IMG/VR virus record: IMGVR_UViG_3300037847_006237 | Span: 1 to 58,778 of that record | Direction: 5' to 3' (one strand) | Length of the DNA stretch: 58,778 bases | DNA from: a virus | In this document: piece after piece, positions 18,277 through 53,700 of the stretch | Layout: the number at the start of each line of letters is the position of its first letter | How positions within the stretch are numbered: position 1 is the first letter of the stretch | Position numbers and translations under genes: made by a program | Notes under the pieces: generated by a model | Databases searched by the model: none | The model's input: only the letters and a program-made list of their open reading frames with translations | Told to the model about the DNA's origin: nothing

Positions 18277-18701
18277 GTCAAGACATTGTAGAAACATTAT
18301 TGAATATGATGACAGAAGAGCAAAAGGCGGAACTTGTAAAAAAACTTCAAAGTTCAGACCTTGAAGCTCGCGATGTCGATAAGACAGAGAAAGAGGTTAA
18401 ACCTCCACAGCAAGAAACAAGAGTTTCAGACGACTTTACAATGAAAAGAGACAAGCCTAAGCAAAACTCTACACAATTAGAGGTTAAAAAAAGAGAAAAC
18501 CTTTTTGTAGACGATGGAACAGAGCATAAAAACGAAGCAAACAAAACACCAGAAGTTGTTCCTACGGCTAGGTCTAGACCTAAATTTCAAAAGGTTGAAC
18601 AGGTCTGTAATTATTGCAATAAGTCAGAAATGGTTCATCCACAATTTGTAAGAGAGTTTTATACTTGCCTAAGATGCGCGAGCGGTGGAGTAAAGAGATG
18701 A
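18273..18701 (+). CDS. Linker protein with C-terminal zinc finger
   Basis: This 142-residue protein has AGGAGA upstream and an ATGA overlap at both ends. Residues 1-30 form an amphipathic helix (VETLLNMMTEEQKAELVKKL). Residues 30-105 are low-complexity and charged, probably disordered. Residues 112-134 carry two Cys pairs (CNYC and CLRC) of a zinc finger. A helix, a flexible linker and a finger directly upstream of the helicase suggest a helicase loader or adaptor, but no family was recognised. Confidence 0.5.
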   Translation: MSQDIVETLLNMMTEEQKAELVKKLQSSDLEARDVDKTEKEVKPPQQETRVSDDFTMKRDKPKQNSTQLEVKKRENLFVDDGTEHKNEANKTPEVVPTARSRPKFQKVEQVCNYCNKSEMVHPQFVREFYTCLRCASGGVKR

Positions 18702-20146
18702 AAAACAATCTGCAAGACTTGGCGTCTGAAAGGGCTGTCTTAGCTTCTCTATGTCAATTTGGGCTAGACTCTTATCTTGAGATGGATTTTGTAGAGGAGA
18801 GTCACTTTACAGATGAGATGAATCAGCTAATCTTTAGCTGTATCTATAAAGTTGTTTCTGAAAATTTAAAAGTAGAACTTTCTTCTATACTATCTGCCGC
18901 GAATACTTTGGGCATGGAAGAAGTCATAAACACAAAAGAGGAAATATCTTTTGTTAGATCTCTGTTTAATTTTCCAGTACATAAAGACAACGCCCAAGCA
19001 CACGCAGCAAAACTTGCCAAGCTAAAGCTAGCCAGAGACTTTAAAAAGACAATATCTTTATGTTCAAAAGATTTAGATAACATTACTGGCGAAGAAGATA
19101 TTATGGATCTTATCTCCAAGGTGGAGAGTCCCATTCTAGATGCTACCGCTGACGTATATCAATCTTCTGGAAACAAAACAGAACTTATCGGAGATGAAAT
19201 TGATGAATATTTAGAATATCTTTCAGAAAACGTTTCCGACTTTGTAGGAATACCTACCGGCTTTGATAGATACGATCAGGCTATTGGTGGAGGTCTTAGA
19301 AGGAAGTGTGTAGATCTCATCGCCGCCCGTCCTAAAGTAGGCAAGTCTATGTTTGGTGATGCCGTTGCTGTAAACATAGCGAAGAAAAATATTCCGGTTC
19401 TTGTCTTGGACACAGAAATGTCAAAGAAAGATCACTGGAACAGAATGCTTGCGTGTTTGAGCGGAGTAGAAACCAAAAGGATATCAACCGGAAAGTTTAC
19501 AGAGAATGAAATTGAAAAAGAAAAGGTTACTAAGGCAGCAGAAGAATTAAAGACTATACCATATCACTATATAAATATCTCCGGTCAACCATTTGAAAAC
19601 ATACTTGGAATTATGAGAAAATGGATTTACCAACACGTTGGATTTGATGAGAATGGCGAAACAAATGACTGTGCTATAATTTACGATTACTTGAAACTTA
19701 TGGACTCTAGCGCCATTTCTAGTAACGTTGCAGAATTTCAAGTCTTAGGATTTCAAATTACCAAGCTTCACAACTTTATGGTTAAGTATGACGTTCCATG
19801 TCTAGCTTTCGTGCAGCTTAACAGGGACGGTATTACAAAAGAAACAACGGATGTTATATCTGGTTCAGATAGGCTTGTTTGGCTCTGTACTAGTTTTTCA
19901 ATCTTTAAACGTAAGTCTGATGAAGAAATGGCGGAGGACAACATAAGAAACGGAGATAGAAAAATTGTAACAGTAGAGACTAGACATGGCGAGGGTATGC
20001 AAGATGGAAACTATGTTAGTGTAAAAATGTTTGGTTCCATAGGTAAAATTGAAGAAGGTTTAAGTAGAGACGAGATACATAATAATGCAAGATCAAGAGA
20101 AGAAGGCTTTGAAACAGACGAAGAGCAAGACGCTATCCCAGCCTGA
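18698..20146 (+). CDS. dnaB: DnaB-like replicative helicase
   Basis: This hexameric 5'-3' helicase would unwind DNA at the fork. The ATGA overlap at 18698 with GGTGGAG upstream is the better start and gives 482 residues. An N-terminal helical domain (ERAVLASLCQFG) is followed by the RecA-like motor: IPTGFDRYDQAIGGGL, Walker A ARPKVGKS at 210-217, VLDTEMSKK, Walker B IIYDYLKLM at about 331-339, and the FVQLNRDG and SDRLVWL segments. Length and order fit the family. The primase gene begins within its last 62 nt, so the two are coupled. Confidence 0.9.
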   Translation: MKNNLQDLASERAVLASLCQFGLDSYLEMDFVEESHFTDEMNQLIFSCIYKVVSENLKVELSSILSAANTLGMEEVINTKEEISFVRSLFNFPVHKDNAQAHAAKLAKLKLARDFKKTISLCSKDLDNITGEEDIMDLISKVESPILDATADVYQSSGNKTELIGDEIDEYLEYLSENVSDFVGIPTGFDRYDQAIGGGLRRKCVDLIAARPKVGKSMFGDAVAVNIAKKNIPVLVLDTEMSKKDHWNRMLACLSGVETKRISTGKFTENEIEKEKVTKAAEELKTIPYHYINISGQPFENILGIMRKWIYQHVGFDENGETNDCAIIYDYLKLMDSSAISSNVAEFQVLGFQITKLHNFMVKYDVPCLAFVQLNRDGITKETTDVISGSDRLVWLCTSFSIFKRKSDEEMAEDNIRNGDRKIVTVETRHGEGMQDGNYVSVKMFGSIGKIEEGLSRDEIHNNARSREEGFETDEEQDAIPA

Positions 20147-21185
20147 AATAGCTAAAGTCTGCGATATGCTCTCAGAGCGTGTAGATGAACTGCTAGACAG
20201 GTTTGGCGTAGATTACGTAGAATATCCAAACAGATTTTCTTTTCCTTGTCCAGTGCATGGTGGAGATAGTCCAGAGGGATGTACGGTTTTTACAGATGGA
20301 GATACCGTTAAAGGAAATTGGAAATGTTGGACTTGTCATTGCGAAGAAGAATGGAAAGATAATATATTTGGATTTGTAAGAGGTTCGCTATCTTACCAAA
20401 AAGGAAGAAGCGTTTCTCTTAACGAAGCTTTTAGTTTTTGCTTAGAGTTTTTAGGTGAGTCTAAAATAGACATTGATGAAAATAGGCATGTAACAAACAA
20501 CAAAAAATCTAAGCTTTTAGATCTTTTTCAAAAGAAATATACTAGCCCAGAGCAAAAGTTTTCCAGAGACAGCATACAGAAGAAGTTAGACATTCCTTCT
20601 TCTTATTATATAGATAGAGGATATAAGAAAGAAACACTAATTACTTTTGACGTTGGCGACTGCTCAGAGGTCGGAAAGCCTATGTACAAAAGGGCCGTGG
20701 TTCCCATCTACGACATAAACTACAGCTATCTAGGTTGCGTCGGCAGAGATACAACAGATAAGTCTAAGCAGAAATGGCTTCATAGTAAAGGATTTAAGAA
20801 AAATTCACTATACGGCATAAATATTGCAAAAGATTTTATGAAAGATAGGTTTAAATACCCAACCCTCTTTATATTAGAGGGACAGGGTGACGTTTGGAGA
20901 ATGCACGAATCTGGGTACAAAAACTCCGTAAGTATTTTCGGATCTGCTTTAAGTGATGACCAGCTAGTTTTGCTAGAAGAGGTCGGCGTTATGAATCTTA
21001 TAATTCTTACAGACTATGATGAAGCGGGCAAGAAGGCAGCAAAACAGATAGTCCAAAAAGGAGGAAGAAGATTCAACTACTACAGACCAACAATATCAAC
21101 AAAAGATGTGGGAGACATGTCTATTGAGGAATTGAATTTAGAATTAAATCCACAGTTAAGCGATATGGAGACAATAAGAATATGA
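20085..21185 (+). CDS. dnaG: DnaG-like primase (CHC2 zinc finger and TOPRIM)
   Basis: This 366-residue protein would lay down RNA primers for lagging-strand synthesis. The N-terminal zinc site is Cys55-x2-His58 and Cys81-x2-Cys84 (CPVHGG, CWTC). The core contains YKRAVVPIYD and a YLGCVGRDTT strand. The TOPRIM fold follows with FILEGQGDVWRM (catalytic Glu) and ILTDYDEAGKKAA (Asp-x-Asp). It is shorter than bacterial DnaG and lacks its helicase-binding C-terminal domain. It overlaps dnaB by 62 nt and the dNMP kinase by ATGA. Confidence 0.88.
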   Translation: MQDQEKKALKQTKSKTLSQPEIAKVCDMLSERVDELLDRFGVDYVEYPNRFSFPCPVHGGDSPEGCTVFTDGDTVKGNWKCWTCHCEEEWKDNIFGFVRGSLSYQKGRSVSLNEAFSFCLEFLGESKIDIDENRHVTNNKKSKLLDLFQKKYTSPEQKFSRDSIQKKLDIPSSYYIDRGYKKETLITFDVGDCSEVGKPMYKRAVVPIYDINYSYLGCVGRDTTDKSKQKWLHSKGFKKNSLYGINIAKDFMKDRFKYPTLFILEGQGDVWRMHESGYKNSVSIFGSALSDDQLVLLEEVGVMNLIILTDYDEAGKKAAKQIVQKGGRRFNYYRPTISTKDVGDMSIEELNLELNPQLSDMETIRI

Positions 21186-22040: not shown

Positions 22041-23063
22041 ATGATAGCTACATACATCAGGTCTTCCAGCTATGGAAACTATGAATTTTGCCAAATGCAA
22101 TACTTTATGACTTATGTTTTAGGATATAGGTCTGAATCTGGCAAGAAGGCTCAACAAGGTACTGCGTGTCACAAGGTGATGGAGTGTCTTGCGGCGTGTA
22201 AAAAAGAACTACAAGAAAATCCAGAATCTAAAAATTTAAAGATAGTAGACGACGCTATTGGGGAAGTAGAGTTTACTCCTAGAAAACTAGGAACAAAAAA
22301 GTTTGTAGCGCAACTAATGAAAGATAGTTATGAACACTACACTTCACAAGATAGTCACAAGTATTATCCTGCTGATTTTAAGTTTTGTGAGAAGCAAGTG
22401 GAGACAGCGTTGACCTTTAACGATGGTCAGTTTGACCCAAGAAAAAGGACTATAGTAGATACAGAACCCACGTTCGACATACCTATTGAAGAAGAGTGGG
22501 CAAAGTATGAATACGAAATGCCAAACGGAGAGACTATAAAAGGCAACTTAGCTATAAAAGGAACAATCGACTTAGTTACGAGCGTTTCTGACAGCGTAAT
22601 CGAAGTCATTGACTGGAAAACCGGACAGAGAAAAAACTGGGCAACCGGAGAGGTTAAAGACTATGACAAGCTAACTAAAGACCCACAACTACTACTTTAT
22701 AACTATGCAATATCAAAACTTTATCCACAATACGATCAATCTATCATGTCCATATTTTTCACTAGGGACGGTGGACCTTTTAGCATGTGCTTTGACGATT
22801 CTGATCAAAGAAGTTTTCTAGACATGCTTCGGGTTAGATATGAAGAGATCAAGAAAAACATTAAGCCTAAACCAATAAGCGAAAAAAGGCTAGACTTTAG
22901 ATGTCAAAAGCTGTGCCATTTTTATAAGAACAACTGGCCCGGAACCAATACAACAATGTGTCAATATGTAGAAAATAAAATTCATACAATTGGCTACGAA
23001 CAAACAGTAAAAGAATGCACTAAAGAAGGTTTCAACATAGGATATTACGAGGCACCGGGATAA
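22041..23063 (+). CDS. RecB/Cas4-like PD-(D/E)XK nuclease with probable Fe-S cluster
   Basis: This 340-residue nuclease shows the RecB-family order: an N-terminal YEFCQMQYF segment, GTACHKVME (His), IKGTIDLV (Asp), EVIDWKTG (the D/E-x-K pair) and DPQLLLYNYA (the Q-x3-Y motif). Four Cys are placed like an iron-sulfur cluster site: Cys17 near the N-terminus and Cys288, Cys292 and Cys307 near the C-terminus, comparable to Cas4 and AddB. AAGGGA precedes the ATG. It probably resects DNA ends for the RecA-like and annealing proteins. Confidence 0.8.
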   Translation: MIATYIRSSSYGNYEFCQMQYFMTYVLGYRSESGKKAQQGTACHKVMECLAACKKELQENPESKNLKIVDDAIGEVEFTPRKLGTKKFVAQLMKDSYEHYTSQDSHKYYPADFKFCEKQVETALTFNDGQFDPRKRTIVDTEPTFDIPIEEEWAKYEYEMPNGETIKGNLAIKGTIDLVTSVSDSVIEVIDWKTGQRKNWATGEVKDYDKLTKDPQLLLYNYAISKLYPQYDQSIMSIFFTRDGGPFSMCFDDSDQRSFLDMLRVRYEEIKKNIKPKPISEKRLDFRCQKLCHFYKNNWPGTNTTMCQYVENKIHTIGYEQTVKECTKEGFNIGYYEAPG

Positions 23064-23923
23064 TGGCAGAATTAATTGATTTAAAGGGCGATTTTGATAA
23101 AGGCAACAAGTTCCTGCTAGAAACCTCTGAATTTTTAGCGGGTTCGCTGGATGACTCATACAGGGTGGTCGTTAAGTATGACTTAGGACCATTAGATATT
23201 CCCAATGACGATAAAAAAAATATTGTTTTTGCATTATCTAGAGAAGTTCATTTACCTCCAAAAGATATTCATGATCCAAGAGTTCATTACATTTTTCATA
23301 ATTATCCTGAATTAGATATGTGGGGTTATCCTACTGAAATTTCTAAAGTTTTTCCAGTGCCTATTGGTACATTCTTAGACGATGATGACTCAATAAATAT
23401 AAAAACAATTCTAGAAAGAGAATATGATTTTGTTTTCATTGGACAAATACCACATACCGGAACCAGAGATAAATTCAAGAAGTGTTTAGATAAATTTCTA
23501 GAAAGTTCTGGACACAACTTTAAATATAAAGTAGTTTATACAGACGGATTCGCCAGAGGTCTAAAAGGTAAAGAATATCTTGAGTTATTGGCAAACTCCA
23601 AGCTGTGTCTTTGCCCAACTGGAGCGACTAGCGAGGAGACGTTCCGATTTTTTGAGGCGCTAAAAATGGGATGCTTTCCGGTCTTAGAAAGACTACCCAA
23701 GTTTTGGTATTACTTAAACGCGCCATTTTTTACTGGTAAATGGGAATTTTTGGACCATACCATCAACCAAACGTTAAATTTTTTACATAATCCTAAGAAT
23801 AAAGCTGTGTTTATGTCTCTAGCAAGATATAATATGACAGTATTGGACCCCAAACATTTGTCACTCATTTTGAAATCTAAAATTGATGAATTTGATACCA
23901 CTAAATTGCAAGACCCACTATAG
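23063..23923 (+). CDS. Exostosin-like glycosyltransferase
   Basis: This 286-residue protein resembles the GT-B C-terminal half of exostosin-family transferases: YDFVFIGQIPHTGTRDKFKK, YLELLANSKLCLCPTG, SEETFRFFEALKMGCFPVL and a following Pro-rich loop. The Glu-rich ETFRFFEAL strand is the usual sugar-nucleotide site. It is separated from the main glycan island by the polymerase genes and overlaps dnaE-N by 38 nt. It probably transfers a sugar to a virion, DNA or cell-surface target; donor and acceptor are unknown. Confidence 0.65.
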   Translation: MAELIDLKGDFDKGNKFLLETSEFLAGSLDDSYRVVVKYDLGPLDIPNDDKKNIVFALSREVHLPPKDIHDPRVHYIFHNYPELDMWGYPTEISKVFPVPIGTFLDDDDSINIKTILEREYDFVFIGQIPHTGTRDKFKKCLDKFLESSGHNFKYKVVYTDGFARGLKGKEYLELLANSKLCLCPTGATSEETFRFFEALKMGCFPVLERLPKFWYYLNAPFFTGKWEFLDHTINQTLNFLHNPKNKAVFMSLARYNMTVLDPKHLSLILKSKIDEFDTTKLQDPL

Positions 23924-25499
23924 TCTTTTGAAAGGCTTCTGCAAACCTGAGAAGCTGGCTTATAAATGTTCAGAATTAGATCTTGAAGCTTGCGGAATTG
24001 CTGACTACAAGACCGTTTCTGGGGCTATCGAATTTCATGAATCCTGCACCCAGAACGGTGTCAAACCTATCATAGGTTGCGATTACGGAGACTTCTGCCT
24101 CTATGCTAAAAATAGAAAGGGGTGGATAGAACTTATGCAGATAGTAGGCTTGGTAGAGGATAGCGTAAATGTCATAGATATTTTTAACATAGCCAAGAAC
24201 GGGAACCTGATATGCGTTACAAGCTCTACAACTATCATGAAAGCTTGGGAAAAGATAACTAAATTTAAAAATCTTTTATTTAAGTATGACTATAAGAAAA
24301 GAGAAGTCTTGTATGTATCTAAAGAAGAAGTAGACGCGCATAGAGTCGTGCTTTGCTCTGGCATGAAGCTGACTTTGCCAAAAGTAGAGAGAAAGATAAG
24401 TAAAAAAGAAGATTTTGAAAACAGTAAGTATTTTACTAAAGACGGTTTTCATCTTCCGCAAGTCACGAAATCTAAAAAAGAATGCGAACTAGTAAAACAA
24501 ATAGCGGATATGTGTGAAACTTACGATGTAAAAAGCAAGCCTATGCTACCTAGTTTCTCATGTCCTAAAGGTTTTACAGAAGATGAGTATCTAAAGGATT
24601 TGTGTAGAGGTGGATGGAAAGAAAAGCTGGTTCCTCAAGGCAAGGTTTCTAATGTCCAGAACAAGCAAGAGTATCTAGAAAGAGTAAAAATTGAGCTAGA
24701 AGTTATCTTTAAGGCCAGACTAAGCGGATACTTTCTAATCGTTCAAGACATCGTGAATTATGTAAAGAATAAAGGCTGGCTCGCTGGACCGGGAAGAGGC
24801 TCTGCTGCTGGCTGTCTTGTTTCATACCTTTTGGGAATTACAGAAGTAGACCCTATTGAGTTTGATTTGCTATTCGAGCGTTTTTACAACGAGGGAAGAA
24901 ATACAGAAGATCATGTATCTCTTCCAGATATAGATGTAGACGTTCCTGCGGAGCATAGAGACGAGGTTATTGACTATATCAAAGAAAAATATGGTAAAGA
25001 AAACGTATCGCAAATGGTAACATACGGTAGGCTACAAGGAAGGTCTGCGCTTAAAGAGGTTATGAGAATCAACGACAATGTAAGCTTTTCCGAAATGAAT
25101 GAGATAACGGACTGCATACCAGACGAAGCGATGATTTCTGACCAGCTAGAGTTGATGGATAAAGAAGACAGGTCTATAATTAGGTGGGCATTAATCAATG
25201 AGGCTAGCAATCTTAAAAAATGGTGCTATATTGATGAAGAAGGAAACCTAGCTGGGCCTATGTCTGAAACTTTTAAACAGGCTATGATTATCGAGGGTAC
25301 AAATAAGTCTCAAGGTAAGCATCCTGCCGGTGTAATTATTTCTAAATATAAATTAAATCAAGTATGTCCTATGGTTACTGATAAAAGCGGTAAAAAGATT
25401 GTACAATTTGAGATGGTTGCCCTTGAGACTCAGGGGCATGTTAAATTCGATATTTTGGGTATCGACTTGTTAAGTAAAATTATGGAGATTTGCAAATGA
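23886..25499 (+). CDS. dnaE: DNA polymerase III alpha, N-terminal half (split DnaE-N)
   Basis: This 537-residue product covers the first half of a C-family replicative polymerase. Residues 1-70 are a PHP domain (THYSLLKG, GIADYKTVSGAIEF, GVKPIIGCDYG), in which two expected metal-binding His are Lys9 and Tyr41. GPGRGSAAG at 301-309 and PDIDVD at 347-352 give catalytic Asp348 and Asp350. HVKFDILGID gives the third, Asp522, just before the stop. The protein ends at a linker after ...KIMEICK, where intact DnaE continues. The stop overlaps the next gene by ATGA, and no intein or intron signature is visible. The first ATG (23886) lies inside the previous gene. Confidence 0.88.
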   Translation: MNLIPLNCKTHYSLLKGFCKPEKLAYKCSELDLEACGIADYKTVSGAIEFHESCTQNGVKPIIGCDYGDFCLYAKNRKGWIELMQIVGLVEDSVNVIDIFNIAKNGNLICVTSSTTIMKAWEKITKFKNLLFKYDYKKREVLYVSKEEVDAHRVVLCSGMKLTLPKVERKISKKEDFENSKYFTKDGFHLPQVTKSKKECELVKQIADMCETYDVKSKPMLPSFSCPKGFTEDEYLKDLCRGGWKEKLVPQGKVSNVQNKQEYLERVKIELEVIFKARLSGYFLIVQDIVNYVKNKGWLAGPGRGSAAGCLVSYLLGITEVDPIEFDLLFERFYNEGRNTEDHVSLPDIDVDVPAEHRDEVIDYIKEKYGKENVSQMVTYGRLQGRSALKEVMRINDNVSFSEMNEITDCIPDEAMISDQLELMDKEDRSIIRWALINEASNLKKWCYIDEEGNLAGPMSETFKQAMIIEGTNKSQGKHPAGVIISKYKLNQVCPMVTDKSGKKIVQFEMVALETQGHVKFDILGIDLLSKIMEICK

Positions 25500-25720
25500 A
25501 AGCCACACAAGAAGATTATAAATCAGTTATTTTCTCTGGTTGCTCTATTGATTGCAAAGGTGTTTCGATATGTAATCTTTCCAACCACTACAATAGACTT
25601 GTTAGTACAAACGAGTACCAAGTTTGGTCGGATAGAAATAAAGAATATCACCTTTTCAAAAATATAGACGAGGCCGTTAATAAATTTTTAGAACTAACAA
25701 ATAAAAGAAGAAGAGCTTAG
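25496..25720 (+). CDS. Small protein between the dnaE halves
   Basis: This 74-residue protein starts at an ATGA overlap with the stop of DnaE-N and ends 2 nt before the exonuclease. It has three Cys (SGCSIDCKGVSIC) and a WSDRNKEYHLF-NIDEAVNKFLEL segment with a basic end (NKRRRA). It matches no polymerase domain that I recognise. Its position makes a role in joining or regulating the split polymerase possible, but it may equally be unrelated. Confidence 0.5.
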   Translation: MKATQEDYKSVIFSGCSIDCKGVSICNLSNHYNRLVSTNEYQVWSDRNKEYHLFKNIDEAVNKFLELTNKRRRA

Positions 25721-25721
25721 T

Positions 25722-26417
25722 ATGAATTATAGAGACATTATCGTTTTTGACTTTGAGACCACGGGTCAGAACCCATATAAATGCCAGCCAACACAGATTG
25801 CCGCCGTAGCTATTCATGCTCGTAAGCTAGAGCTACAGCCGGGAGGCGTGTTTGAGAGTAAAATGCGATGCATTGTAGACGATGAAGAGGCTATCGCTGC
25901 GGGTTTTGATCCCATAGAAGACAAAGCCTTAGAAGTTACTAGAAAAACCAGAGAAGAGATTTCAAAGGGACCGCTACCAAAAACCGTATGGAATAAATTT
26001 GCTAATTTTTGTAACGAATATAACTTTAAAAAGACCAGCTACTACGCACCGATTGCGGCAGGATACAACATTAACGGCTTTGATATGCCTATTGTTGATC
26101 GAATGTGTGAGAAGTATGGCCCCGTGGACAAAAAGAGAAACAGGCAAGGAATTTTTAATCCTATCTTCACAATAGACGTTATGCAACATATCTACTGCTG
26201 GTTTGAGAACAATCAAGAAGTTAAAGGTTATGGCATGGACTACATGCGTGACTACTTTGGAATGTCTCAAGAAAGCAAAGACAAAGCGCACGACGCTTTG
26301 CAAGACGTTAAAGACACTGCAAATTTGATGATTAAATTTATGAAATTCCAAAGAACGCTTTTAGAAAAGACAAAGTTCCAGAAAGCGTTTGCTAATGGTG
26401 AAGTCTATGTCAAGTAG
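25722..26417 (+). CDS. dnaQ: DnaQ-like 3'-5' proofreading exonuclease (DEDDh)
   Basis: This 231-residue exonuclease has all DEDDh motifs: FDFETTG (Asp10, Glu12), GYNINGFDMPIV (Asp121), and AHDALQDVKDTA (His190, Asp195). It would remove mismatched 3' ends for the polymerase in trans, as epsilon does for DnaE. The gene lies between the two dnaE halves, tightly packed on both sides. The C-terminal 30 residues are basic and helical and could be an interaction tail. It is a good candidate for the proofreading subunit of the split polymerase. Confidence 0.85.
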   Translation: MNYRDIIVFDFETTGQNPYKCQPTQIAAVAIHARKLELQPGGVFESKMRCIVDDEEAIAAGFDPIEDKALEVTRKTREEISKGPLPKTVWNKFANFCNEYNFKKTSYYAPIAAGYNINGFDMPIVDRMCEKYGPVDKKRNRQGIFNPIFTIDVMQHIYCWFENNQEVKGYGMDYMRDYFGMSQESKDKAHDALQDVKDTANLMIKFMKFQRTLLEKTKFQKAFANGEVYVK

Positions 26418-26577
26418 TAAAAAAATTAGAATTTCCGACGTTCATGGAAACCATACATACGTAGACTTAGACGAATTAGTAGACTTTTATAAAAAGCAGA
26501 AGAAATTCGTAGAAAAGCTTGAAAAACAAATAAAGGATGCAGAAATTGACCTACGGAAAGAGGAAGATGAAAAATAA
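26407..26577 (+). CDS. Small coiled-coil protein between the dnaE halves
   Basis: From the ATG at 26407 the product has 56 residues; an in-frame ATG at 26395 would add four. A short beta-turn start (ISDVHGNHTYVDLDEL) leads to a strongly charged helix (DFYKKQKKFVEKLEKQIKDAEIDLRKEEDE) with heptad-like spacing, a likely coiled coil. It overlaps both neighbours. A small coiled coil between DnaQ and DnaE-C could serve as a linker or bridging subunit; this is inference. Confidence 0.5.
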   Translation: MSSSKKIRISDVHGNHTYVDLDELVDFYKKQKKFVEKLEKQIKDAEIDLRKEEDEK

Positions 26578-28132
26578 CTTTGATATCAACGATTTTAATG
26601 ATTCAGAGGTTTGGGATTTGATTTGCGAGGGTAGAACTAAAGGCGTTTTTCAATTAGAATCCAACCTAGGAAAACATTGGGCTAAAGAAGTCGCTCCGAG
26701 AAACATTATTGAGTTAGCCGCAACGATCTCTTTGATTCGGCCGGGTACTCTCAAAGCTAAAGACGAGAAGACTAAGAAGAGCATGACGCAGCTTTATGCG
26801 TTTAGAAAAGCTGGTAATACTGATTACCCAGTAGAGTATCTGCATGAATCTTTGGAACCTATTCTAAAAGAAACCTATGGGGTGCTTGTTTATCAAGAAC
26901 AGTCTATGAAAATAGCGCAGCAGCTAGCTGGGTTTAATTTGAAAGAAGCAGACGACCTAAGAAAGGCTATTGGTAAAAAGAAAGCCGATCTAATGGAAGA
27001 GATTAAAAAGAAATTCGTGAAAGGAACGCAGGAACAAGGGACTGTTAGCCAAAAGGCAGCAGAAGAAATATTTTCTTGGATTGAAAAATCTAGCAGATAC
27101 GCCTTTAATAAAAGTCATGCCGTGGCATATGCGATTAATGCTTACTGGTCTGCTTATTGTAAAACCCACAGACTAAAAAGATTTTACAAAACGTATCTCA
27201 ATAGATCAGACAAAAAACCAAAGTCAGAAATAGAGATAAAGCAACTCATTATGGATGCAAAGTCAGCAGGTATAGAAGTATATCCTCCAAGGCTTTCTAG
27301 ATTGCAAACAGACTTTGAACTAGACGATAATAAGAATTTGATTTATTTTGGTCTCAGGCATGTAAAAGGTGTAGGCACTAAGGAATGTGAGAAAATTGAA
27401 ACCCTTGAAGACGTTTCTGAATACTCTTGGATGGATTGTATCACTAAAGTAATACATCCTTTAAAGATAAACAAGAGAGCGGCTATCGCAATGATATCTG
27501 TTGGAGCTTTTAGTGGTAAAAATAATAAAGAAAGCAGAAGAAAAATGCTCTATGAGTTCGATAGCTGGAAACAGCTTTCTGCTCGCGAACAGTCTGCCAT
27601 TGTAGAAAACCAGAAAGAACCAAGCACAAGGTCCAAAACTCTTGCAGACGCAGTGGGAGTACTTATAGAAAACACCAAAATAAACTCTAGAAGAATGGAG
27701 ACCGTGATAAACGTTCAAAACTCTTTAAAAAATCCTTTTTATGACCTAGAAGATCATGCCGTCTCTATAGCGACTCAGGAAGCTAAGTTACTAGGATGTT
27801 CTTTAACGTGCAGCAAAGTAGACGATGCACAAGTGGCTACAGATTATTGCGAAGATGTAGCCAAAGGTTTAAAAAAGAAAAAGATAAGTTTAGCCGTTGT
27901 GATTAATTCTATCAGAGTGGTTAAAACAAGGAATGGAAAAAATCCTGGACAAGAAATGGCATTTCTTTCTGTAGAAGATAATAGCGGAGAATTAGAATCT
28001 GTGACAATTTTTCCAGAAACCTATGCCGAATATAAAAACGTTTTATTAGAAGAAAATACAGTGATGTTATTTTGTGAGCCTTCTAAGAAAGAAAAGGGAT
28101 CAGTAATCGTAAACAAAGCAATGCAAATTTGA
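26567..28132 (+). CDS. dnaE: DNA polymerase III alpha, C-terminal half (split DnaE-C)
   Basis: The start at 26567 follows GGAAAGAGGAAG and gives 521 residues. It resumes exactly where DnaE-N stops: FDINDFNDSEVWDLI, then the fingers with GVFQLES at 26-32, RPG at 58-60, YGVLVYQEQSMKIAQ at 104-118, LRKAIGKKK and FNKSHAVAYA. GLRHVKGVGTKE near 260 is a helix-hairpin-helix. The final 85 residues are an OB-fold (ISLAVVINSIRVV, FLSVEDNSGELESV). The tau-binding C-terminal domain of long DnaE proteins is absent. Both halves together would be about 1,058 residues, near a complete alpha subunit. Confidence 0.88.
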   Translation: MKNNFDINDFNDSEVWDLICEGRTKGVFQLESNLGKHWAKEVAPRNIIELAATISLIRPGTLKAKDEKTKKSMTQLYAFRKAGNTDYPVEYLHESLEPILKETYGVLVYQEQSMKIAQQLAGFNLKEADDLRKAIGKKKADLMEEIKKKFVKGTQEQGTVSQKAAEEIFSWIEKSSRYAFNKSHAVAYAINAYWSAYCKTHRLKRFYKTYLNRSDKKPKSEIEIKQLIMDAKSAGIEVYPPRLSRLQTDFELDDNKNLIYFGLRHVKGVGTKECEKIETLEDVSEYSWMDCITKVIHPLKINKRAAIAMISVGAFSGKNNKESRRKMLYEFDSWKQLSAREQSAIVENQKEPSTRSKTLADAVGVLIENTKINSRRMETVINVQNSLKNPFYDLEDHAVSIATQEAKLLGCSLTCSKVDDAQVATDYCEDVAKGLKKKKISLAVVINSIRVVKTRNGKNPGQEMAFLSVEDNSGELESVTIFPETYAEYKNVLLEENTVMLFCEPSKKEKGSVIVNKAMQI

Positions 28133-28139
28133 GGTAAAT

Positions 28140-28487
28140 ATGAATAAATGTACTTTTTTAGGTCGTCTGAATCCAGACATAGAAATAGAATTTACAGACG
28201 GGAAAACTCCACATATAATTTTTTCTATGGACGTAGAATCTTTTAGGAAAAGTAAAAACGGTAAAAAGAAGAGAGAATATAACTGTCTAGAGTTTGAAGC
28301 TTGGGATACAGCCGCTTTAACCATACGAGAAAAATTAAAATCAGACTGCACCATGTTGGTAGAATGTGAGGCTAGATCCACCTTCACCTTCTGCGGTGAT
28401 AGCGATTCGGAATTGGATAAAACTTATTTTAGAGTTCTTAGTTTTAAAATATTCCACGCTAATAAGGATTGGGGAAATGAGAAATAA
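28140..28487 (+). CDS. ssb: Single-stranded DNA-binding protein
   Basis: This 115-residue protein has the bacterial SSB OB-fold pattern: MNKCTFLGRLNPDIEI, HIIFSMDVESF, a basic loop (RKSKNGKKKRE), YNCLEFEAWDTAA, LVECEARS and YFRVLSFKIF. It lacks the long flexible acidic tail of E. coli SSB. GAGG precedes the ATG, and the next gene overlaps by 11 nt. It would coat ssDNA at the fork and during recombination. Confidence 0.8.
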   Translation: MNKCTFLGRLNPDIEIEFTDGKTPHIIFSMDVESFRKSKNGKKKREYNCLEFEAWDTAALTIREKLKSDCTMLVECEARSTFTFCGDSDSELDKTYFRVLSFKIFHANKDWGNEK

Positions 28488-30114
28488 AAAAGTTCTGTTT
28501 GTTTCCGAGGCTTCATGGCTTCCTACTGGATACTCTGTATATACAAATGAAGTTTTATCTAGGCTAAATAAAGTAGACGGAATAGAGGTTGCTGAAATCT
28601 CCACTTTTGCCGATGTTAATGATCTTAAAAAAAATCCTAGAGAATGGAAGGCTTATGCAAACAAACCACTAAAAACAGACCCGATATATGAAAAATACAG
28701 CAGTAGCGTATCTTGTCAGTTTGGAGACATGGTATTTAATCAGGCTTTGTTAGATTTTCAGCCGGATATCGTTATGGATATTCGCGATTGGTGGATGATG
28801 GAATTTGAACAAAGGTCTCCATTTAGAAACTTCTTCCATTGGGCGATCATGCCCACCGTAGACGCATCACCCCAAGATCAGCAATGGATCAACACATACG
28901 CTTCTGCCGACTCTGTTCTTACTTACAGCGAGTTTGGAAGAGACGTTCTTAAATCTCAATCAGACGATATCAACTTTATTGGCATGGCTCCTCCATCTGC
29001 TAGTCAAGACTTTTTTCCAGTTGAGGACAAGGGCAAACATAAGGAATCTATGGGTATCTCTAGAGACTGTACTATCGTTGGAACCGTAATGCGAAATCAA
29101 AGACGCAAACTTTATCCAGACCTATTCAAGAGTTTTAGAGAGACGCTAGATAGAACAAAGAACGATAATCTTTTTCTACATTGTCATACCTATTATCCAG
29201 ACTCAGGATGGGACATACCCGCACTGATACAGGAGTATGGTCTTTCTGGAAGGGTCACAATGACATATAAGTGCAGAGATTGTGGTAACATATCCATAGA
29301 GACTTTTCAAAACTCTATGAAGTTCTGTAGTAAATGCAATTCATTTAACAATCATTTGGTGGGAATAAATAATCCAATCAACACAAAAGAACTGGCAAGC
29401 ATTTACAATATTTTTGATCTATATGTGCAGTATGCAAACAGTGAAGGGTTTGGTATGCCACAACTTGAAGCCGCACAGTGTGGTGTCCCTGTTATTTCTG
29501 TGCGATATTCCGCTATGGAGTCTATTATAGATAATATAGAAGCTTGGGGAGTAGAACCATTATGTATGGTTAAAGAGGTAGAAACCGGATGCAATAGAGC
29601 AGTTCCAAATAATGAAGAGTTTGTAGACCTACTGTCTACATTAACGCATCCAGACAAAGACCTAGCCGCCGAAGGAAGTCGTCAGCGAGACTTAGCTATG
29701 CAAAAATATAGCTGGGATCAAACTGCTAAAGTTTGGGAAGAAAGAATTAAAGAAATAGAATTTAAAGACCGTAAAGAAACTTGGGAAAGTCCTGCTGATA
29801 TAAAAATGCCAAGCAAAGAGATTCCAAAAAACCTAACACCCACACAAAAAGCAGATTATCTGTTTGATTATGTTTTGTGCCGCCCAGAAATGAAGGGTGG
29901 GTTCTTATGGAGAAAAGTTCTTAAAGACCTGACCTTCGGATTTAGAAGACCTAATGCGGATTCAGATTTTTACTTTAACGAAAGTCATGTAAAGTCTGTT
30001 AAAGAAACGTCGCTATTTTCTTTTGAGGATGCGCATAGAGAGCTTTATAATTTGAGGATGCAGATAAATGAGTGGGAACAGGCAAGAATAGAAAAACTAA
30101 GAGGTTTATCGTGA
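28477..30114 (+). CDS. GT4-like glycosyltransferase with zinc-ribbon insertion
   Basis: The start at 28477 follows AAGGATTGGGG and gives 545 residues. The N-terminal Rossmann domain opens VLFVSEASWLPTGYSVY. The C-terminal GT-B domain has YVQYANSEGFGMPQLEAAQCGVPVIS, the usual E-x7-E nucleotide-sugar region. Between them lie CRDCG and CSKC, two Cys pairs about 20 residues apart, which look like an inserted zinc ribbon. About 120 further residues follow the GT domain and match nothing I recognise. It is the first gene of the glycan island and overlaps ssb by 11 nt. Confidence 0.8.
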   Translation: MRNKKVLFVSEASWLPTGYSVYTNEVLSRLNKVDGIEVAEISTFADVNDLKKNPREWKAYANKPLKTDPIYEKYSSSVSCQFGDMVFNQALLDFQPDIVMDIRDWWMMEFEQRSPFRNFFHWAIMPTVDASPQDQQWINTYASADSVLTYSEFGRDVLKSQSDDINFIGMAPPSASQDFFPVEDKGKHKESMGISRDCTIVGTVMRNQRRKLYPDLFKSFRETLDRTKNDNLFLHCHTYYPDSGWDIPALIQEYGLSGRVTMTYKCRDCGNISIETFQNSMKFCSKCNSFNNHLVGINNPINTKELASIYNIFDLYVQYANSEGFGMPQLEAAQCGVPVISVRYSAMESIIDNIEAWGVEPLCMVKEVETGCNRAVPNNEEFVDLLSTLTHPDKDLAAEGSRQRDLAMQKYSWDQTAKVWEERIKEIEFKDRKETWESPADIKMPSKEIPKNLTPTQKADYLFDYVLCRPEMKGGFLWRKVLKDLTFGFRRPNADSDFYFNESHVKSVKETSLFSFEDAHRELYNLRMQINEWEQARIEKLRGLS

Positions 30115-31199
30115 AAGTATTATACATAGGAAACTACAAAGATCAAACTGGGTGGGGCGATGCCTCGCTCAACAATATATTAGCTATGGATAAGGCGGGA
30201 GTCGATGTTGTTCCTAGAGCAATCACCTATAATAATAGGGCTGGCTTTGACAACGATAGAATCCTACAGCTTGAAGAAAAGAGTGCCGATGGATGCGATG
30301 TTTGTATTCAACATGTGTTGCCACATCTTTACAACTATGATTCAAATTTTAAGCTAAATGTTGGATTTTTAGAATCTGAAACATTGGATCTTAAATATAG
30401 CGGCTGGAACAATTACGCTTCTATTATGGATGAGATATGGGTTCCTAGCAACGCCTGTAAGAAATCTCTAGACATAGAAAAGCCGGTTCATATTATTCCT
30501 CATTGTCTAGACTTTTCAAAATATCAAGATACGCAGTCTGGAAATAAAATAGAAAACCTCATGGGAACATATAATTTTGTTTTTATAGGAGAGTTTATTG
30601 AAAGAAAGAACCTCAAAGCTTTGATTAGGGCTTTTCATACAGAGTTTAAACCTTGGGAAAACGTAAACCTATATATCAAGACTTCTGGGGCAGATCTTGC
30701 CGTCGTTCAAAATTTCTGCAACCAAATAAAGCGTGGACTAAAAGTTTCTGAGAACTACAAAGAAGAAGTTGTGATATGTGGAAAGCTAGACAAGGAAGAC
30801 TATATATCAACACTCGCTCAATGCCACTGCTTCGTTATGCCTAGTTACGGAGAAGCTTTCTGCATACCTGCGCTGGAGGCTTCTGCAATTGGGCTAGAGT
30901 GTCTTTGGACGGAAGGCATAGGAGTAGAAGATTTTGCTACGGGCGGAGACGTAGAGTCTTGTGAAGAGCCTTGTTTTGGCGGAACCGCATCGCTCAGAAA
31001 TTTGTATACTGCAAAAAATAAATGGTTAACAATTAACATCGAAAAGTTACAAGAAGCAATGAGAAACCGTTTCAATAATTACAAAAACGGTAATCGTGTG
31101 GACGTAGGTACTAAATGGGAAAGATGTAGTCACGAAAACGTAGGAAAGATGATCAGAGAAAGACTAGAGCAAGGAGTGAAAGATGCCAGCAATCGCTAA
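30111..31199 (+). CDS. GT4-like glycosyltransferase
   Basis: This gene starts with GTG in a GTGA overlap after GAGG and codes for 362 residues. The GT-B fold begins VKVLYIGNYKDQTGWGDASL. The donor domain has YNFVFIGEFIERKNLKALIRAF and VMPSYGEAFCIPALEASAIGL with the E-x7-E motif. It is probably retaining, as in family GT4. The acceptor is unknown. It is tightly coupled to glycosyltransferase genes on both sides. Confidence 0.8.
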   Translation: MKVLYIGNYKDQTGWGDASLNNILAMDKAGVDVVPRAITYNNRAGFDNDRILQLEEKSADGCDVCIQHVLPHLYNYDSNFKLNVGFLESETLDLKYSGWNNYASIMDEIWVPSNACKKSLDIEKPVHIIPHCLDFSKYQDTQSGNKIENLMGTYNFVFIGEFIERKNLKALIRAFHTEFKPWENVNLYIKTSGADLAVVQNFCNQIKRGLKVSENYKEEVVICGKLDKEDYISTLAQCHCFVMPSYGEAFCIPALEASAIGLECLWTEGIGVEDFATGGDVESCEEPCFGGTASLRNLYTAKNKWLTINIEKLQEAMRNRFNNYKNGNRVDVGTKWERCSHENVGKMIRERLEQGVKDASNR

Positions 31200-32205
31200 T
31201 CAAAGATCCGTAAGAAATATCACAAGAAGCGCACATAGGCCGGAAAAGCTAAATATTCTAACCTTTGCTACTCACGAAAGATACGAAGAAAACCTCTGTA
31301 AAACTGGTCACAACTTCTATTCATTAGCCATTGGTAAAACTTGGGATACGGACTATGCGCCCATTCCAGACAACTATCATATCGTAAACGCTATTCCTGA
31401 TTACGTTGATTTTGACTTAATTTTAACTCATACATCGTGTGACAGAATGTTTAAGGCTCACCAAGCCCTAACGGGCCTAGACGTTCTTCAAGGCAACAAA
31501 ACTGGAATTCCAATCCTTAGACACACCCATGTATTACCAGATATTAGGTTTGATGTTCCTGATCAAGCTTCCGCTTTTTGCAAATATCCTAGTGATAAGA
31601 ACTCATTTATATCTGAATACAACATGACGCAGTGGAACATGTCTAGAGCAACTTCCGCAAGTGTCGTAGAACACGGCGTTGACACCGACTTCTGGAAGCC
31701 CGATGACAGTGTAAAAAGGGATAACGTCTGTCTATCCGTGGTAAATGACTGGCCCAACAGAGACTGGTGTTGCGGCTTTAATCTATGGCGACAAACAACC
31801 CAAGATTTACCCGTAAGAGTTTTTGGAAAAAGTCCCGGTTTTTCGGAACCCGCAAATTCTACAGAACACCTAAGAGAAATTTATCAATCTTCAAGAATAT
31901 TTTATAATACTTCTTTACATTCTCCTGTTCCTAGTGTATTATTAGAAGCTATGTCGTGTGGGTGCGCCGTGGTTTCTACTAACAACTGTATGATACCTGA
32001 GATAATTGAGAATGGAAAAAATGGACTAGTATCAAACAACCCACAAGAACTGAGAGGGTGTTTAGAGCTTCTCCTTAAAAACCAAGATCTTGCAAAAGAA
32101 CTAGGAGATAACGCCAGAAAAACCATAGTCGAAAAATATAACCTTGAAAGATTTGTTAATAATTGGAACAACATACTTCACTCTACCGTAAATGAATACA
32201 AATAA
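31183..32205 (+). CDS. GT4-like glycosyltransferase
   Basis: This 340-residue protein starts at an ATG after AAGGAG, overlapping the previous gene by 17 nt. The N-terminal domain contains ILTFATHERYEENLCKTGHNF. The donor domain has CLSVVNDWPNRDWCCGFNLW, IFYNTSLHSPVPSVLLEAMSCGCAVVST and IPEIIENGKNGLV, a standard GT4 signature. The first 25 residues form a short basic lead. It would act in glycan assembly in the phage-infected cytoplasm. Confidence 0.8.
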   Translation: MPAIANQRSVRNITRSAHRPEKLNILTFATHERYEENLCKTGHNFYSLAIGKTWDTDYAPIPDNYHIVNAIPDYVDFDLILTHTSCDRMFKAHQALTGLDVLQGNKTGIPILRHTHVLPDIRFDVPDQASAFCKYPSDKNSFISEYNMTQWNMSRATSASVVEHGVDTDFWKPDDSVKRDNVCLSVVNDWPNRDWCCGFNLWRQTTQDLPVRVFGKSPGFSEPANSTEHLREIYQSSRIFYNTSLHSPVPSVLLEAMSCGCAVVSTNNCMIPEIIENGKNGLVSNNPQELRGCLELLLKNQDLAKELGDNARKTIVEKYNLERFVNNWNNILHSTVNEYK

Positions 32206-47797: not shown

Positions 47798-50700
47798 TTA
47801 ATCTTCGTCGTCAAAAACACAATCTTCACCCTCGTAAACATCATCATCAAGATCACAATGATTCCATACGTCCACCTTTTTCTTTTGGGTAGTTATAGTT
47901 CTTGTGCCAATGATTATATCATGCACTAGTTCAATCGTGTCAAACATATCCATATATACAACCATCCAGTAACACTCTGGTTCTGAGCCTGAACAAAGTT
48001 GAGCAGCGCCAAGTTCTGGTAATTCTTGCCCTCCTAAATCTATAGTAACAGAATTTGTAGATCTATCTACGTCTACTATGTCATAAGTAAGGTCGCCTTG
48101 TTTTATCTGTGCATTAACGCCAGAAGCTCTAGTGGGCAACAATCCTTCTACCGTAATAACTGCTTGATCGCTTGCTCTTACTACGTCTTTAATTGTAATA
48201 TCTTCACAAACAACCCCAGCGCCATCGTAGTCAGGATCATCGTGGCAGGGTCCATTAGGTAAATAGTCCCAAACACGCATCGCTACGCCTTTTCTTCCTC
48301 TTAGATCACTTTCAAATCTTCTTGGGTATTCTCCACCGAAAAAGCCCTCCATAGGGTCTTTAATTTTAATGTAGCCCCCAGCGTTGGAAGTTGGATCTAC
48401 TTCCCAAGCTCCCCTTAGTGGGTCAGGCGTAACAGAAATCTCGTCGGGAACACTCGTTACGCCACAAGGATATTGAGTTATTCTACCAATTATTTCTTCA
48501 ATTTCCGGCCTACTTTCTAGCGTTATACATCTTCTATCTACCTCATTACAATCAGAAAGATAAGGAAGATTTGTGTCTGGGTCTATCGCTCCTGTAAGAT
48601 CGGTAAAAGACTCTATTGTAAAATTGTGATTACCAAGATATCCAGACATATCATTAAGTATGTCAATCATATCCAGCCAGTCATCTTTTCTTAAACTATT
48701 AGGATAGCCATACTCTTTGTTTATTCCGCCTTCATAAATTGTGCCAGTACCACTGACAGGCGCATCCGTTGGTCCTGTCCAAGCGCCTCCGCCAGCAACC
48801 CAAGCGTCGTTAGGGGCGCCGTTGGTAAAGTAAGTACCATTTTCAGAAAGATTTATCCAATCAATAATATGCGATGAGTTATCTGCTAGCCAAGTTGTAG
48901 CATCAAAACCTTCGCCTTCACTAAAGTTGCCCTCATGAGGCCGACCATTCTCAAGATCAGGGTTTGGATGGGTACTGGTTATTGGTTGTAAAGCGCCCCT
49001 AGCAAGACCTTCATTGTTTTGATCGCCTGTTAGCCCATCTCTTGTTTGACATATTGTTATTACTTCACAGTCTTGAGTCATGCTAAACGATTCAGTAAAA
49101 GGAGAGTCTCTCCAAGCATCCATTATGGCCTGAGCAACGTCAGAGGCTGTCATATCGTCATTAATATAAACAGGAACCGCTGGGAAAGCGCTATCAAGAT
49201 AGGTGTACCTGCCATATGTAGGATATTCACTTAATTCTGGACCGGAAGGAAAGTCGTTAGTCTGATCATCATCAGAAAGGTCTCCAACCCAGTCTTTAAC
49301 AAAGAAAAAGTAATGGGCCAAAGTATCGTCTAGCTCGCTATCCAAGGGGTCTGTCGGATCGCCAGTTTCGTTTGTATAAGAGTCTCTAATACCAAAAAAG
49401 TCTCCAGTATAACTAGGATCTGTATTAACGTTTATCTCACTAGCTGCAATTGTTCTAAGCTTCATACAGGCGGCTCCCGGTCTTGGATAACAAGTTTTCA
49501 TAATCCAAAACTCCATATTCATGCCTTCTCCCGGGTTCGTTGCTACGTTATCCTTGGAGCTACCATGATATATAACGTCAGTATGATTCCTCCAGACTTG
49601 TGTTCCATCTGTTTCGCCTTCGTTCTGACAATAATCTAAGTGGTGGTCTGGTTTTCTAGGTTGAAAACCTCCCCAGTCGTAATAATTATTATCGGTTTGC
49701 ATTGGAAATTCTGTAGGGTCGGTAATAGTAGAAGAATTAGCATTGCTATGCCTGCTTATGGCGAGCCACCAAACTTGGGTATCTGTGGTACAAATATCAT
49801 CTGGGTCTTGGGTTTCAAAACCAACCAAATCCACTCCTCCGCCACTACTAAGAGGAACCCATTCATAATTTATCCTCATAACAGTAAGGTAAGAATTTTC
49901 TCCTGCATTCATGCTAAATTTTGGATCTCTATTATAGCACTTAATGATTTCAGGAGGATCGTTATGGGCCAAAGCACCATCACCCTTTTGATCAGAAACC
50001 TTTCTTAAAACTTTAAGATTGAATGTAGTTGGATTCATTGGGCTTTCTGGAGACTCTACATCCGTTACTACTATTCCAGTAAGGGTCTCTAATCCACCAG
50101 ACCAAATCTTTCTTTCCTTGTCCCACATAAGGTTTACTGGGCCGGTCTTCCAAAGATTTCTGTTGTAGGCTAGATTATTATTGAAAAGTCTTATATCCTC
50201 AACAGTTCCGGGTACTGGATTGTTAGCAACATCAAAACCCCAACCAGAAAGAACCATAGGCCCGCGAAGTCCAGCGGGTCTAAACTCAGACAAAGAATCA
50301 ACAGTTTGATCTGTTGTGTAATTATTGCTTGCATTTGTTGCGTATTCTTCTAGATCTAGACCAGTCTTCAAGTTCATAGTTTCTGGAGGAAGTCCATTCT
50401 TATCATGAACAACTATTTGGAAGTCATCAGACATTGCCTTTATATACAGGTTGGCTGGATTTGTTTCTTCTTCTCCATCAGAACCAACAACGTTAAACGT
50501 GTCATTGTCTGTAAATACTGCATAGTTAAAGTAAGGATCTAAGTCGTTGCTTGTTGGCATTATAGAGCCATTATTATCCGCAGAATCGCCTTGGGTGTTC
50601 CTGTAATAATTAAATGTACCTGGAGAATTTTCGTCTCCTTCACCAGCAACGATCTCTTCGTCTATATCTGGGTCTTGAATACTTGGCAAAACGTCATGTT

Positions 50701-53700
50701 GATTTCTTTCTCTATTGCTAGAAAAGCCAACCCAAGTCTGCTCTTTACTCATTCCAAAATTGGTAGAGTAACGTGGACCCACACCAGCGGGATCGGTAAA
50801 CACCACATCGGATATGCTTTCTGTTATTACACTTGTTACTTCTTGATGGTTATTTGGCCTATTTTCAGCAGGGATGAAATCGTCTACAATACTAGCAGAG
50901 CCAACAATGGGACTAATTTCACCAGCGCTTTGTGTGTACGGCTCATATCCGGCATTACCGGCAATAATGGCGACATGCGGATTAAAAGCGCTCTTATTTA
51001 CTGGATTGTCTAAAATCTTTTCTTGTGCTTTAACTGTAGAATCTTTAGCACCAGAAACACTTCCCCCTCCCTTTTGGGCGGCGTTCATTTTATTGCGCCA
51101 AATCCTAGCGACTCTAGACTGATTATATTTTTGAAGTTTTCCGAAGTCGGGAGTCCAAGTATTAAACCTATAAGATGTGGTCATGCCTCCAACGCCTATC
51201 TTAATAGATATGCTTGTAACGTATGGACCAGTGGCAATAAGCCTATCTCCTATGTTATATTCTGGAAACTCGGCAATTTCTATAGAGCCATTTTCTACCT
51301 CTTCCATCGTGGCTATACCAGTATCGGCTTGAGCCTGAGCCGTTTCTGCCATAGTATCTATGCTTCCAAAAGACTCTGGAACTAGCTGGCTATCAAAAAC
51401 AAAGTCTAGTTTTCCGTTTAGATGGTTTGAATTATACCACGGACCCCAAGAGTACCTTTTGCTTTCTTGAGGTATTCCAATGGCTAAAGGTGGAACAATC
51501 GCTGGACCAAATCCGTAAGGTCGCCAATTAATTTCTGTCTTGCCGTTAGAATCCCGAGTAGTCATACCAAGAAGCTCTCTAAAAGCAGGGTTTGCTCTTG
51601 CAAGATCAGTGCCATCAAAAGTCTCATTCATATACAGCAACATGTTAAGAAAGCCATGATCTTTGGAATGAAAAAGATCAGTGGTTTCTACCTGCATTTC
51701 CGTGTCAGCTAAAACAAACGGACTATAATCTACAGAACCCGGCCAATCTATCCACTCTATTCCTTGCTGAAACGATGGTCCTTGGTAAGCAACACCTTGT
51801 ATAGCTGTGGTATTTAACGTCTCGCCTACTGCGCCTTGATTATAACTTCCTAGTTGATATACATTTAAAGGTTTCAATCTTCCCGTAGAGTCGTAAAACT
51901 TTACATTAGAGAGTGGCGCATCTTCTACCCATGCAGAATCAGCCAATCCCCAAGACGGTACTTGAGCTATATCTTCTTTGAAAACTTTAAGGTTGTTTTC
52001 TATTCCGCCCGGTTCTTCTGGCAGCTTAACTAAAAATTTTCTACCATAAAAATTAGTAGCACACTCTGAGACAGCCTGCCAAACCGGACTAGACTCAGCC
52101 GTCTCAATATTAGCTACCTCAATATACCCTAAAAACCTTTCAAACATGCCTGCAAGCTCGGCCCTATTCAAGGCCATTGGTCCTCGCGCACTTCTAGCAA
52201 ACACGTTCGCTATATTGTTTAAAATAACTGGGGCGGGAAGACCACCAAGAGGTCCAGCGGGCTTTGCAAAGCCCAACGCTGCGGCGAATCCTCCGAAATT
52301 ACCATCTGCGCCTACGCTGAATCCCTCATATGCTCCAGAATTAGGATCAAGAAGCCCAAGTGTGTTTTTCCAAACAAACTCAACAAACTTAAAACTAACC
52401 CAAGCATCATATCCCATTCTGGCTTGTCTTAGCTCCATAATCGTTGCCGTATACGATCTATTTCCACCACCACTAAAAGGGCTTGTATAGAGACTCTTAA
52501 CATATAAAGTTACCTCTCTGTCAGAATCATAAGCCCCGTCAGCAACAGTTTCAAAATCTCTGGCTAAAACATAAGCACCACTATTGGTTTGAGCAAATAC
52601 AGGAATTAAATCAGCCGCAGTAGCCAAGAAGTATCTAGAAGCTGGACCCCCAAGAACTATTTTCTGCGTAGGTTCGTTTTGAAACTCTTTTCCAACGCTA
52701 GAATTCACCAAGGTTCCAGCCTCTCTAGCGTCTTCTACATACTGAGCGATAACACCCGGATCTGGAGGCGAAGACTTGTCTATTAGTTTAACTTTTAATA
52801 CAACGTTATCTTGATCTACAAACGGCTCGCCTATATCGTCGCACTCTTCGTTAGTTTCACCAGTGACTTCCCATATATAGTCTCTTTGTGTTAATTCGCA
52901 AACATCAGAAACCAATGAGTTTAAGTCTATATTTGGAGAACCGGAAACCCTATAATATTCTGGAACGACCTCTATAAGCTCAGAAAGGTCTAGCGAATAT
53001 TGAGACTCACCAAAGAAAAGCTTGTCCCCATGTGGGGTTCCGCCCCTAGATATAACCTCTATAGTTTTTAACAATTTTATAGCATCAAAACCTTGAGGAT
53101 TAGTACCAGAGTCGCCCCAAGTGCCAAAACCCCAATCGTCAATTAGTGTGTCGTCAACAAGCCATGTGTCGTCCGGATCATCCCCACTAAGAAGTCCAAG
53201 TGTATAATTTTCAAAATATCCTAACGGATTTAGAACATTTCTAACCAGCCCTTGTTGATAAGGAACCTGAGCGCCTGTCCAAGGTTCAAACTGCGTATCT
53301 CCATAATAAGCAGTGCCTTCAAAAGCATCTAATATTATATGTACACCATCCATAAAGGCAGAAGGTGAAGATAATGTTATGTTGTATTTTTTACCACTAA
53401 TAGATTCAGAATAATTCCACCTTTGAAGAATGCCGCCAAAAAAGAAATCTTTGTATCTAAAATAACAAGCGGTTCCAGCCGTAGGAATATCTGTAATAAA
53501 CCCATTTTCTGGATCATCAACCACTACAAAAGAACAATTAGAAGTATCTCCGCCAAAACCAACGTTGCAATCAACAGAAACAACAAGTCCATTAAACAGA
53601 GTAGGAACAGTTAGGTCTGTTTCTGTTTTTTCTGGAACCAAGAAAGAAAAACTTTCACTCACTACGCTATAGTTTGGATCGCTAGGAGTAAATACGGCAG

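Follow-up and report, generated by a model that had tools for sequence, protein, structure and literature searches.

The window analysed here is the IMG/VR virus record IMGVR_UViG_3300037847_006237 at its full length of 58,778 bp. Between positions 23886 and 28132 it encodes a DNA polymerase III (Pol III) alpha subunit in two separate open frames, DnaE-N and DnaE-C, with the genes S1, X and S2 in between. An earlier note, made from the letters of this stretch, had described such a split polymerase with three small genes in the gap, one of them a full DEDDh exonuclease. Its coordinates and motifs are correct, as judged from the open frames, Pfam and alignment. The genes of the locus are as follows.

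23886..25499, plus strand: DnaE-N, 537 aa, with PF07733 (E 1.6e-71) and PHP by Pfam.
25496..25720, plus strand: S1, a conserved small protein of 74 aa, with a profile match in 73 of 127 distinct intervals.
25722..26417, plus strand: X, a DEDDh (DnaQ/epsilon-like) 3'-5' exonuclease of 231 aa, with PF00929 (4e-15) and phrog_192, 'DNA polymerase exonuclease subunit' (7e-24).
About 26395..26577, plus strand: S2, 60-62 aa depending on the start, an open reading frame with homologues.
26567..28132, plus strand: DnaE-C, 521 aa from ATG 26567 (531 aa from 26537), with PF17657 (9e-43), HHH_6 and OB.

Neighbouring genes overlap or nearly abut, as the note had stated. The start codon of S1 overlaps the stop codon of DnaE-N as ATGA (ATG 25496), and S2 overlaps both X and DnaE-C. 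The longest frame of DnaE-C opens at 26537, but ATG 26567, which gives the 521 aa stated in the note, is the likelier start: the proteins of relatives open with 'FDIN', and disorder is predicted for residues 1-12 of the longest form.

In DnaE-N, Pfam matches PHP at residues 6-89 and PF07733 over the full domain. The motif GPGRGSAAG lies at residues 301-309, and the catalytic residues D348, D350 and D522, all present as previously described, are invariant in an alignment of 23 relatives. DnaE-C has the fingers and HhH domains, while its OB domain falls below the sequence cut-off and is clear by fold. By their palm motifs and their fingers, HhH and OB domains, the two products together correspond to a C-family DNA polymerase of the DnaE type. 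When aligned to solved Pol III alpha structures, a profile built from 23 N-halves reaches Taq residue 628 (E. coli 565), and one built from 25 C-halves begins at Taq 645 (E. coli 590). The AlphaFold model of DnaE-C, with a predicted local distance difference test score (pLDDT) of 89, superposes on residues 577-1073 of E. coli Pol III alpha (Z 21.2) and on Taq 639-1121. Since the limits of the profiles and the superposition are complementary, the cut is placed downstream of the third catalytic Asp, in the short linker that connects palm and fingers, and each product is consequently a set of whole domains. DnaE-C ends at the equivalent of E. coli residue 1073 or Taq 1121, stopping at OB and before the tau-binding C-terminal domain. 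Inspection of DnaE-C by eye revealed no clear clamp-binding motif.

It is highly likely that the virus has a replicative C-family polymerase of its own, encoded here as two polypeptides that assemble in trans, with X as proofreader. DnaE-N would supply the PHP remnant together with palm and thumb, including the metal-binding active site, and DnaE-C would bind the incoming nucleotide and the template through its fingers, HhH and OB domains. The genes are tightly packed and coupled, and their products would come together non-covalently to build one active site, a process that co-translation from overlapping frames would promote. X would bind the two-chain complex as proofreading exonuclease, and the nuclease site of PHP is lost in the clade of the window. 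From the sequences we infer physical assembly, polymerase activity, proofreading by X, roles for S1 and S2, and use of a host clamp.

The same split and gene order, for which the note had proposed a search in other phages, were found widely. The scans of viral contigs asked for similarity to one or the other half, whether or not the enzyme was split, and intact enzymes would also match. Identity to the relatives ranges from about 39 to 91% for DnaE-C and from about 40 to 88% for DnaE-N, and a pattern scan gave at least 581 confirmed relatives among the 600 stretches listed. Both halves are present in 156 distinct intervals, counting the window; in all of them the polymerase is split, and in 155 X lies between the halves. 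No intact close relative was present among the loci that similarity to one or the other half retrieved, roughly 250 in number and many of them overlapping. Loci with DnaE-N and without DnaE-C either run off the contig end or lie on chimeric-looking contigs (loci L246 and L251). In these two, DnaE-N is followed by apparent bacterial metabolic or prepilin-type genes, and the contigs are probably chimeric assemblies. In a 45-row tree of the joined halves, built by a quick method, all sampled split members form one clade with 99% support in the SH-like approximate likelihood ratio test (SH-aLRT). The pairwise distances of the N- and C-halves correlate with r = 0.875. This is expected if the halves travelled together, but as the genes are linked, it says nothing about contact between the products. 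The split in this viral group is old and conserved.

An assembly error or a decaying relic might be suspected in a metagenomic contig, and further breaks or chimeric ends do occur in L149, L176, L246 and L251. Sequencing error had been named in the note as a possible refutation; it is excluded, as is chance, because the same split recurs across many samples, in 156 distinct intervals. In most close pairs, the substitution rate ratio omega is about 0.03-0.06 for both DnaE-N and DnaE-C, indicating strong purifying selection, and mostly 0.01-0.03 for X. Together with the invariant catalytic residues and the lack of any other polymerase found in the records, these values leave error or decay scarcely credible; conservation refutes it. 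The split is very probably functional.

Could the halves be rejoined into one chain by a split intein, trans-splicing or ribosome bypassing, with an ordinary DnaE as the mature enzyme? Cyanobacterial DnaE, encoded by the two genes DnaE-n and DnaE-c, is joined by a split intein. An intein also occurs in the viral family itself: L072 (5090-7249) carries a contiguous one of about 190 aa inside DnaE-C, at the conserved RPG|C. It scores just above the Pfam Intein_splicing cut-off and shows what an intein looks like here. At the cut, however, the N-halves extend only 0-13 aa past the last palm helix and the C-halves have about 1-15 aa before FDIN. These tails are too short to leave room for split-intein pieces, and none were found. 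A split-intein DnaE of the cyanobacterial type was rejected on the length of these tails. DnaE-C has a Met of its own near FDIN, about 1 kb containing other conserved genes separates the two halves, which are also out of frame with each other, and there is no sign of frame recoding or of a shared frame that would rejoin them. Rfam detected no intron at the locus. The view that no space for an intron or intein remains between the halves is thereby upheld, and rejoining is very improbable.

The polymerase complement of the viruses is consistent with a replicase of their own. Each half occurs once per record in 22 records of up to 154 kb. A second intact dnaE, which would have made the locus a relic, was absent from the window and 21 related records searched for either half. 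The 17 viral records surveyed contain no PolA or PolB (family A or B) and one DEDDh exonuclease each. A viral beta clamp was not detected in these 17 records with PF02768, a profile that a divergent clamp could escape. Contact with host replication proteins is thus likely, and it might be argued that the halves partly serve with host Pol III, for example with DnaE-C or X acting on the host replisome, and not as a viral replicase. Both halves nevertheless occur together with helicase, primase and single-stranded DNA-binding protein (SSB) genes, they co-occur wherever the contig is long enough, and the records hold no other viral polymerase. Use on the host replisome is accordingly considered improbable.

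Some observations weigh against the proposed two-chain replicase with X as its proofreader. The records are fragments of uncertain completeness, and a second polymerase could be located elsewhere in the genome. X is tied to the polymerase by gene position and fold family only. Furthermore, the order with X between the halves is not universal, as L102, the most divergent member, has its exonuclease about 10 kb upstream. In the gap of L102 a DUF4326 gene and a macro-like gene are found, and the split is kept. The 104-kb contig to which L102 belongs shows broad synteny with the window. Relatives of the module in L100, L101 and L102 (SHMW01000005.1) belong to metagenome-assembled genome contigs labelled Candidatus Lokiarchaeota, and represent either viruses of Asgard archaea or mis-binned phage contigs.

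The five DEDDh residues of X (D10, E12, D121, H190 and D195) are invariant in 126 relatives, and by these residues X is a DEDDh exonuclease of the RNase_T fold family. It is presumed to be the proofreading subunit of the split polymerase. S1 is under purifying selection and has a predicted alpha-beta4-alpha fold (model pLDDT 79). Foldseek returned no significant match for the model in PDB or BFVD, and neither S1 nor S2 had a hit in PADLOC. S1 may act as a small accessory subunit. S2 homologues are restricted to a few relatives (L003 and the L027 group).

The two-chain polymerase could also take a stronger form, in which S1, and possibly X, bridges or chaperones the halves within a larger obligate complex and DnaE-N plus DnaE-C alone are inactive. 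In most of the wider clade of the window, S1 is the one gene that separates DnaE-N from X and stands close to or overlaps these neighbours, and other lineages have a different gene of 57-64 aa at the same place. The split polymerase of Rossellomorea phage phiT1 likewise has a 49-aa gene between its halves. These arguments are positional, though, L128, L130 and L140 have no detectable small gene between DnaE-N and X, and the S1 model is without a significant structural match. An obligate complex of this kind is rather unlikely.

Genes of other types also occur in the gap. EndoVII-, HNH- or treble-clef-type genes were found in 29 of 154 N-C intervals, at the X|C or the N|X junction, with small genes of this type in L002, L025, L019, L006 and L156, among others. 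Many members have no such gene in the interval, and the window has no endonuclease gene at the split. By analogy, a homing-endonuclease setting is one possible origin of the split. In L095, L146 and L148, a uracil-DNA glycosylase gene is situated between DnaE-N and X (in L095 by Pfam, E 3e-33).

The PHP domain of the window is a remnant from which about 100 aa are deleted. The HxH and the second ligand motif are replaced (NCKTH; no ADSH-like motif), and the remnant may have a structural role. In a simple pattern test, the metal-binding HxH was missing in 114 of 154 N-halves, including that of the window, and kept in the rest. Basal relatives retain the metal-ligand motifs, and HxH appears to have been lost in more than one branch of the tree. 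Intact PHP metal ligands are common but not defining in C-family polymerases, and E. coli alpha has no working site. Repeated loss of the site fits a proofreading role of X. Tentatively, a major uncultured viral lineage may use a multi-subunit C-family core of palm, fingers, the DEDDh exonuclease X and the conserved small subunit S1, produced from ordered, coupled genes and assembled in trans, where repeated loss of the PHP site would be tolerated since X proofreads.

The note had stated that DnaE is also split in cyanobacteria, at another site and with a split intein. This stands, with the cyanobacterial cut further downstream and no intein pieces in the window, and further split Pol III alpha enzymes can be added from Cellulophaga phages, jumbo phages and phiT1. 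The E. coli Pol III core (alpha, epsilon and theta) also pairs a polymerase with a separate DEDDh exonuclease and shares the alpha domains up to OB. In contrast to E. coli alpha, the alpha of the window is divided into two chains, lacks the tau-binding domain, and has a shortened PHP domain with replaced metal motifs.

The closest match in cut position is the cultured phage phiT1 (PV767480.1, gp20-gp19-gp18), whose DnaE is cut in the same palm-fingers linker. Here, gp20 ends with ...KVIQNSVDQINQGVAV and gp18 starts with MFDILDIPLDDAK. Unlike in the window, no exonuclease lies between the halves, whose nearest relatives are intact DnaE proteins of Firmicute phages, such as that of a Moorella phage (36%). 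As phiT1 falls outside the clade of the window in the 45-row tree, its cut probably arose independently. The Cellulophaga-type split also falls outside this clade. In the cultured Cellulophaga phages phi19:2/phiST and Tenacibaculum phage Larrie, two adjacent dnaE genes are annotated, with the cut inside the palm just before PDIDVD, no gene in between and the exonuclease several kb upstream. Two further records contain a broken DnaE. In Bacillus phage vB_BpsS-140 (L185, 4031-7638), an unannotated dnaE is spread over two frames that overlap, and the break separates PHP from palm. The split may be genuine or may stem from a frameshift in the database entry, in which locus tags 61 and 62 are missing at this place. 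In Alicyclobacillus phage MMB025 (L186, 2159-6521), an endonuclease gene interrupts DnaE within its fingers; this may be a group I intron.

In jumbo phages of group 2.2, Pol III alpha is split as well: its catalytic core is divided between two proteins, which are believed to come together as a single enzyme (Iyer, Burroughs, Aravind et al. 2021, PMC7824862). In that group, unlike in the window, the cut lies between the NTP-binding and Mg-binding subdomains, the genes are distant, the enzyme is minimal without other domains, and a family B polymerase is present alongside (PMC7824862). With a cut after the third catalytic Asp and no PolB in the 17 viral records, assignment of the window to this type was rejected. 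Assembly in trans is backed by the precedent of Aeromonas phage 25, in which the split 43A/43B proteins co-purify and have polymerase activity; the split NrdA of Aeh1 is active as well (PMC2988022). The gp43 of Aeromonas phages 25 and 44RR and the NrdA of Aeh1 are essential replication enzymes in pieces that assemble without splicing, as proposed for the window, and their neighbouring homing endonucleases resemble the endonuclease-type genes in the 29 intervals (PMC2988022). The split gp43 belongs to family B, however, and NrdA to another family; both are reported from single phages and not across a lineage, and their gaps hold no proofreader gene.

In the open-access literature, only the jumbo-phage and T4-like splits were found as precedents, and no earlier description of a lineage-wide palm|fingers split with a proofreader in the gap. 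As far as this literature shows, such an arrangement appears new, whereas split replicases themselves were already known. A replicative polymerase normally has just one catalytic chain, and most reported splits are curiosities of individual phages or involve inteins. In the present case, a wide lineage shares a fixed cut, and it affects the only detectable polymerase of these viruses. A natural two-chain Pol III alpha would offer a system for studying palm-fingers cooperation and co-assembly with a proofreader, and the cut of phiT1 in the same linker raises the question of whether this linker is a general fission point. The gene order is also a clear marker for this uncultured viral group.

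The split polymerase belongs to one replication block, with helicase and primase genes upstream of DnaE-N and an SSB gene directly 3' of DnaE-C in the same gene run. The SSB gene is likewise located downstream in most relatives.

18665..20146, plus strand: DnaB-like replicative helicase, PF03796 (3.5e-23).
20085..21185, plus strand: Toprim (DnaG-like) primase, PF13662 (2.1e-12) and phrog_47 (2.9e-34).
28140..28487, plus strand: SSB gene, PF00436 (4.7e-7).

Several glycosyltransferase-like genes lie on both sides of the replication genes (23063-23923 and 28366-32205). On the minus strand, positions 47798-54676 encode a protein of 2292 aa without a Pfam match, which is probably structural and stands beside other unassigned minus-strand genes. 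On the plus strand, a Shine-Dalgarno-like motif precedes 24 of 42 gene starts, compared with 135 of 1057 for any ATG. The host of the virus probably uses Shine-Dalgarno initiation, and these motifs make a Bacteroidota host somewhat disfavoured.

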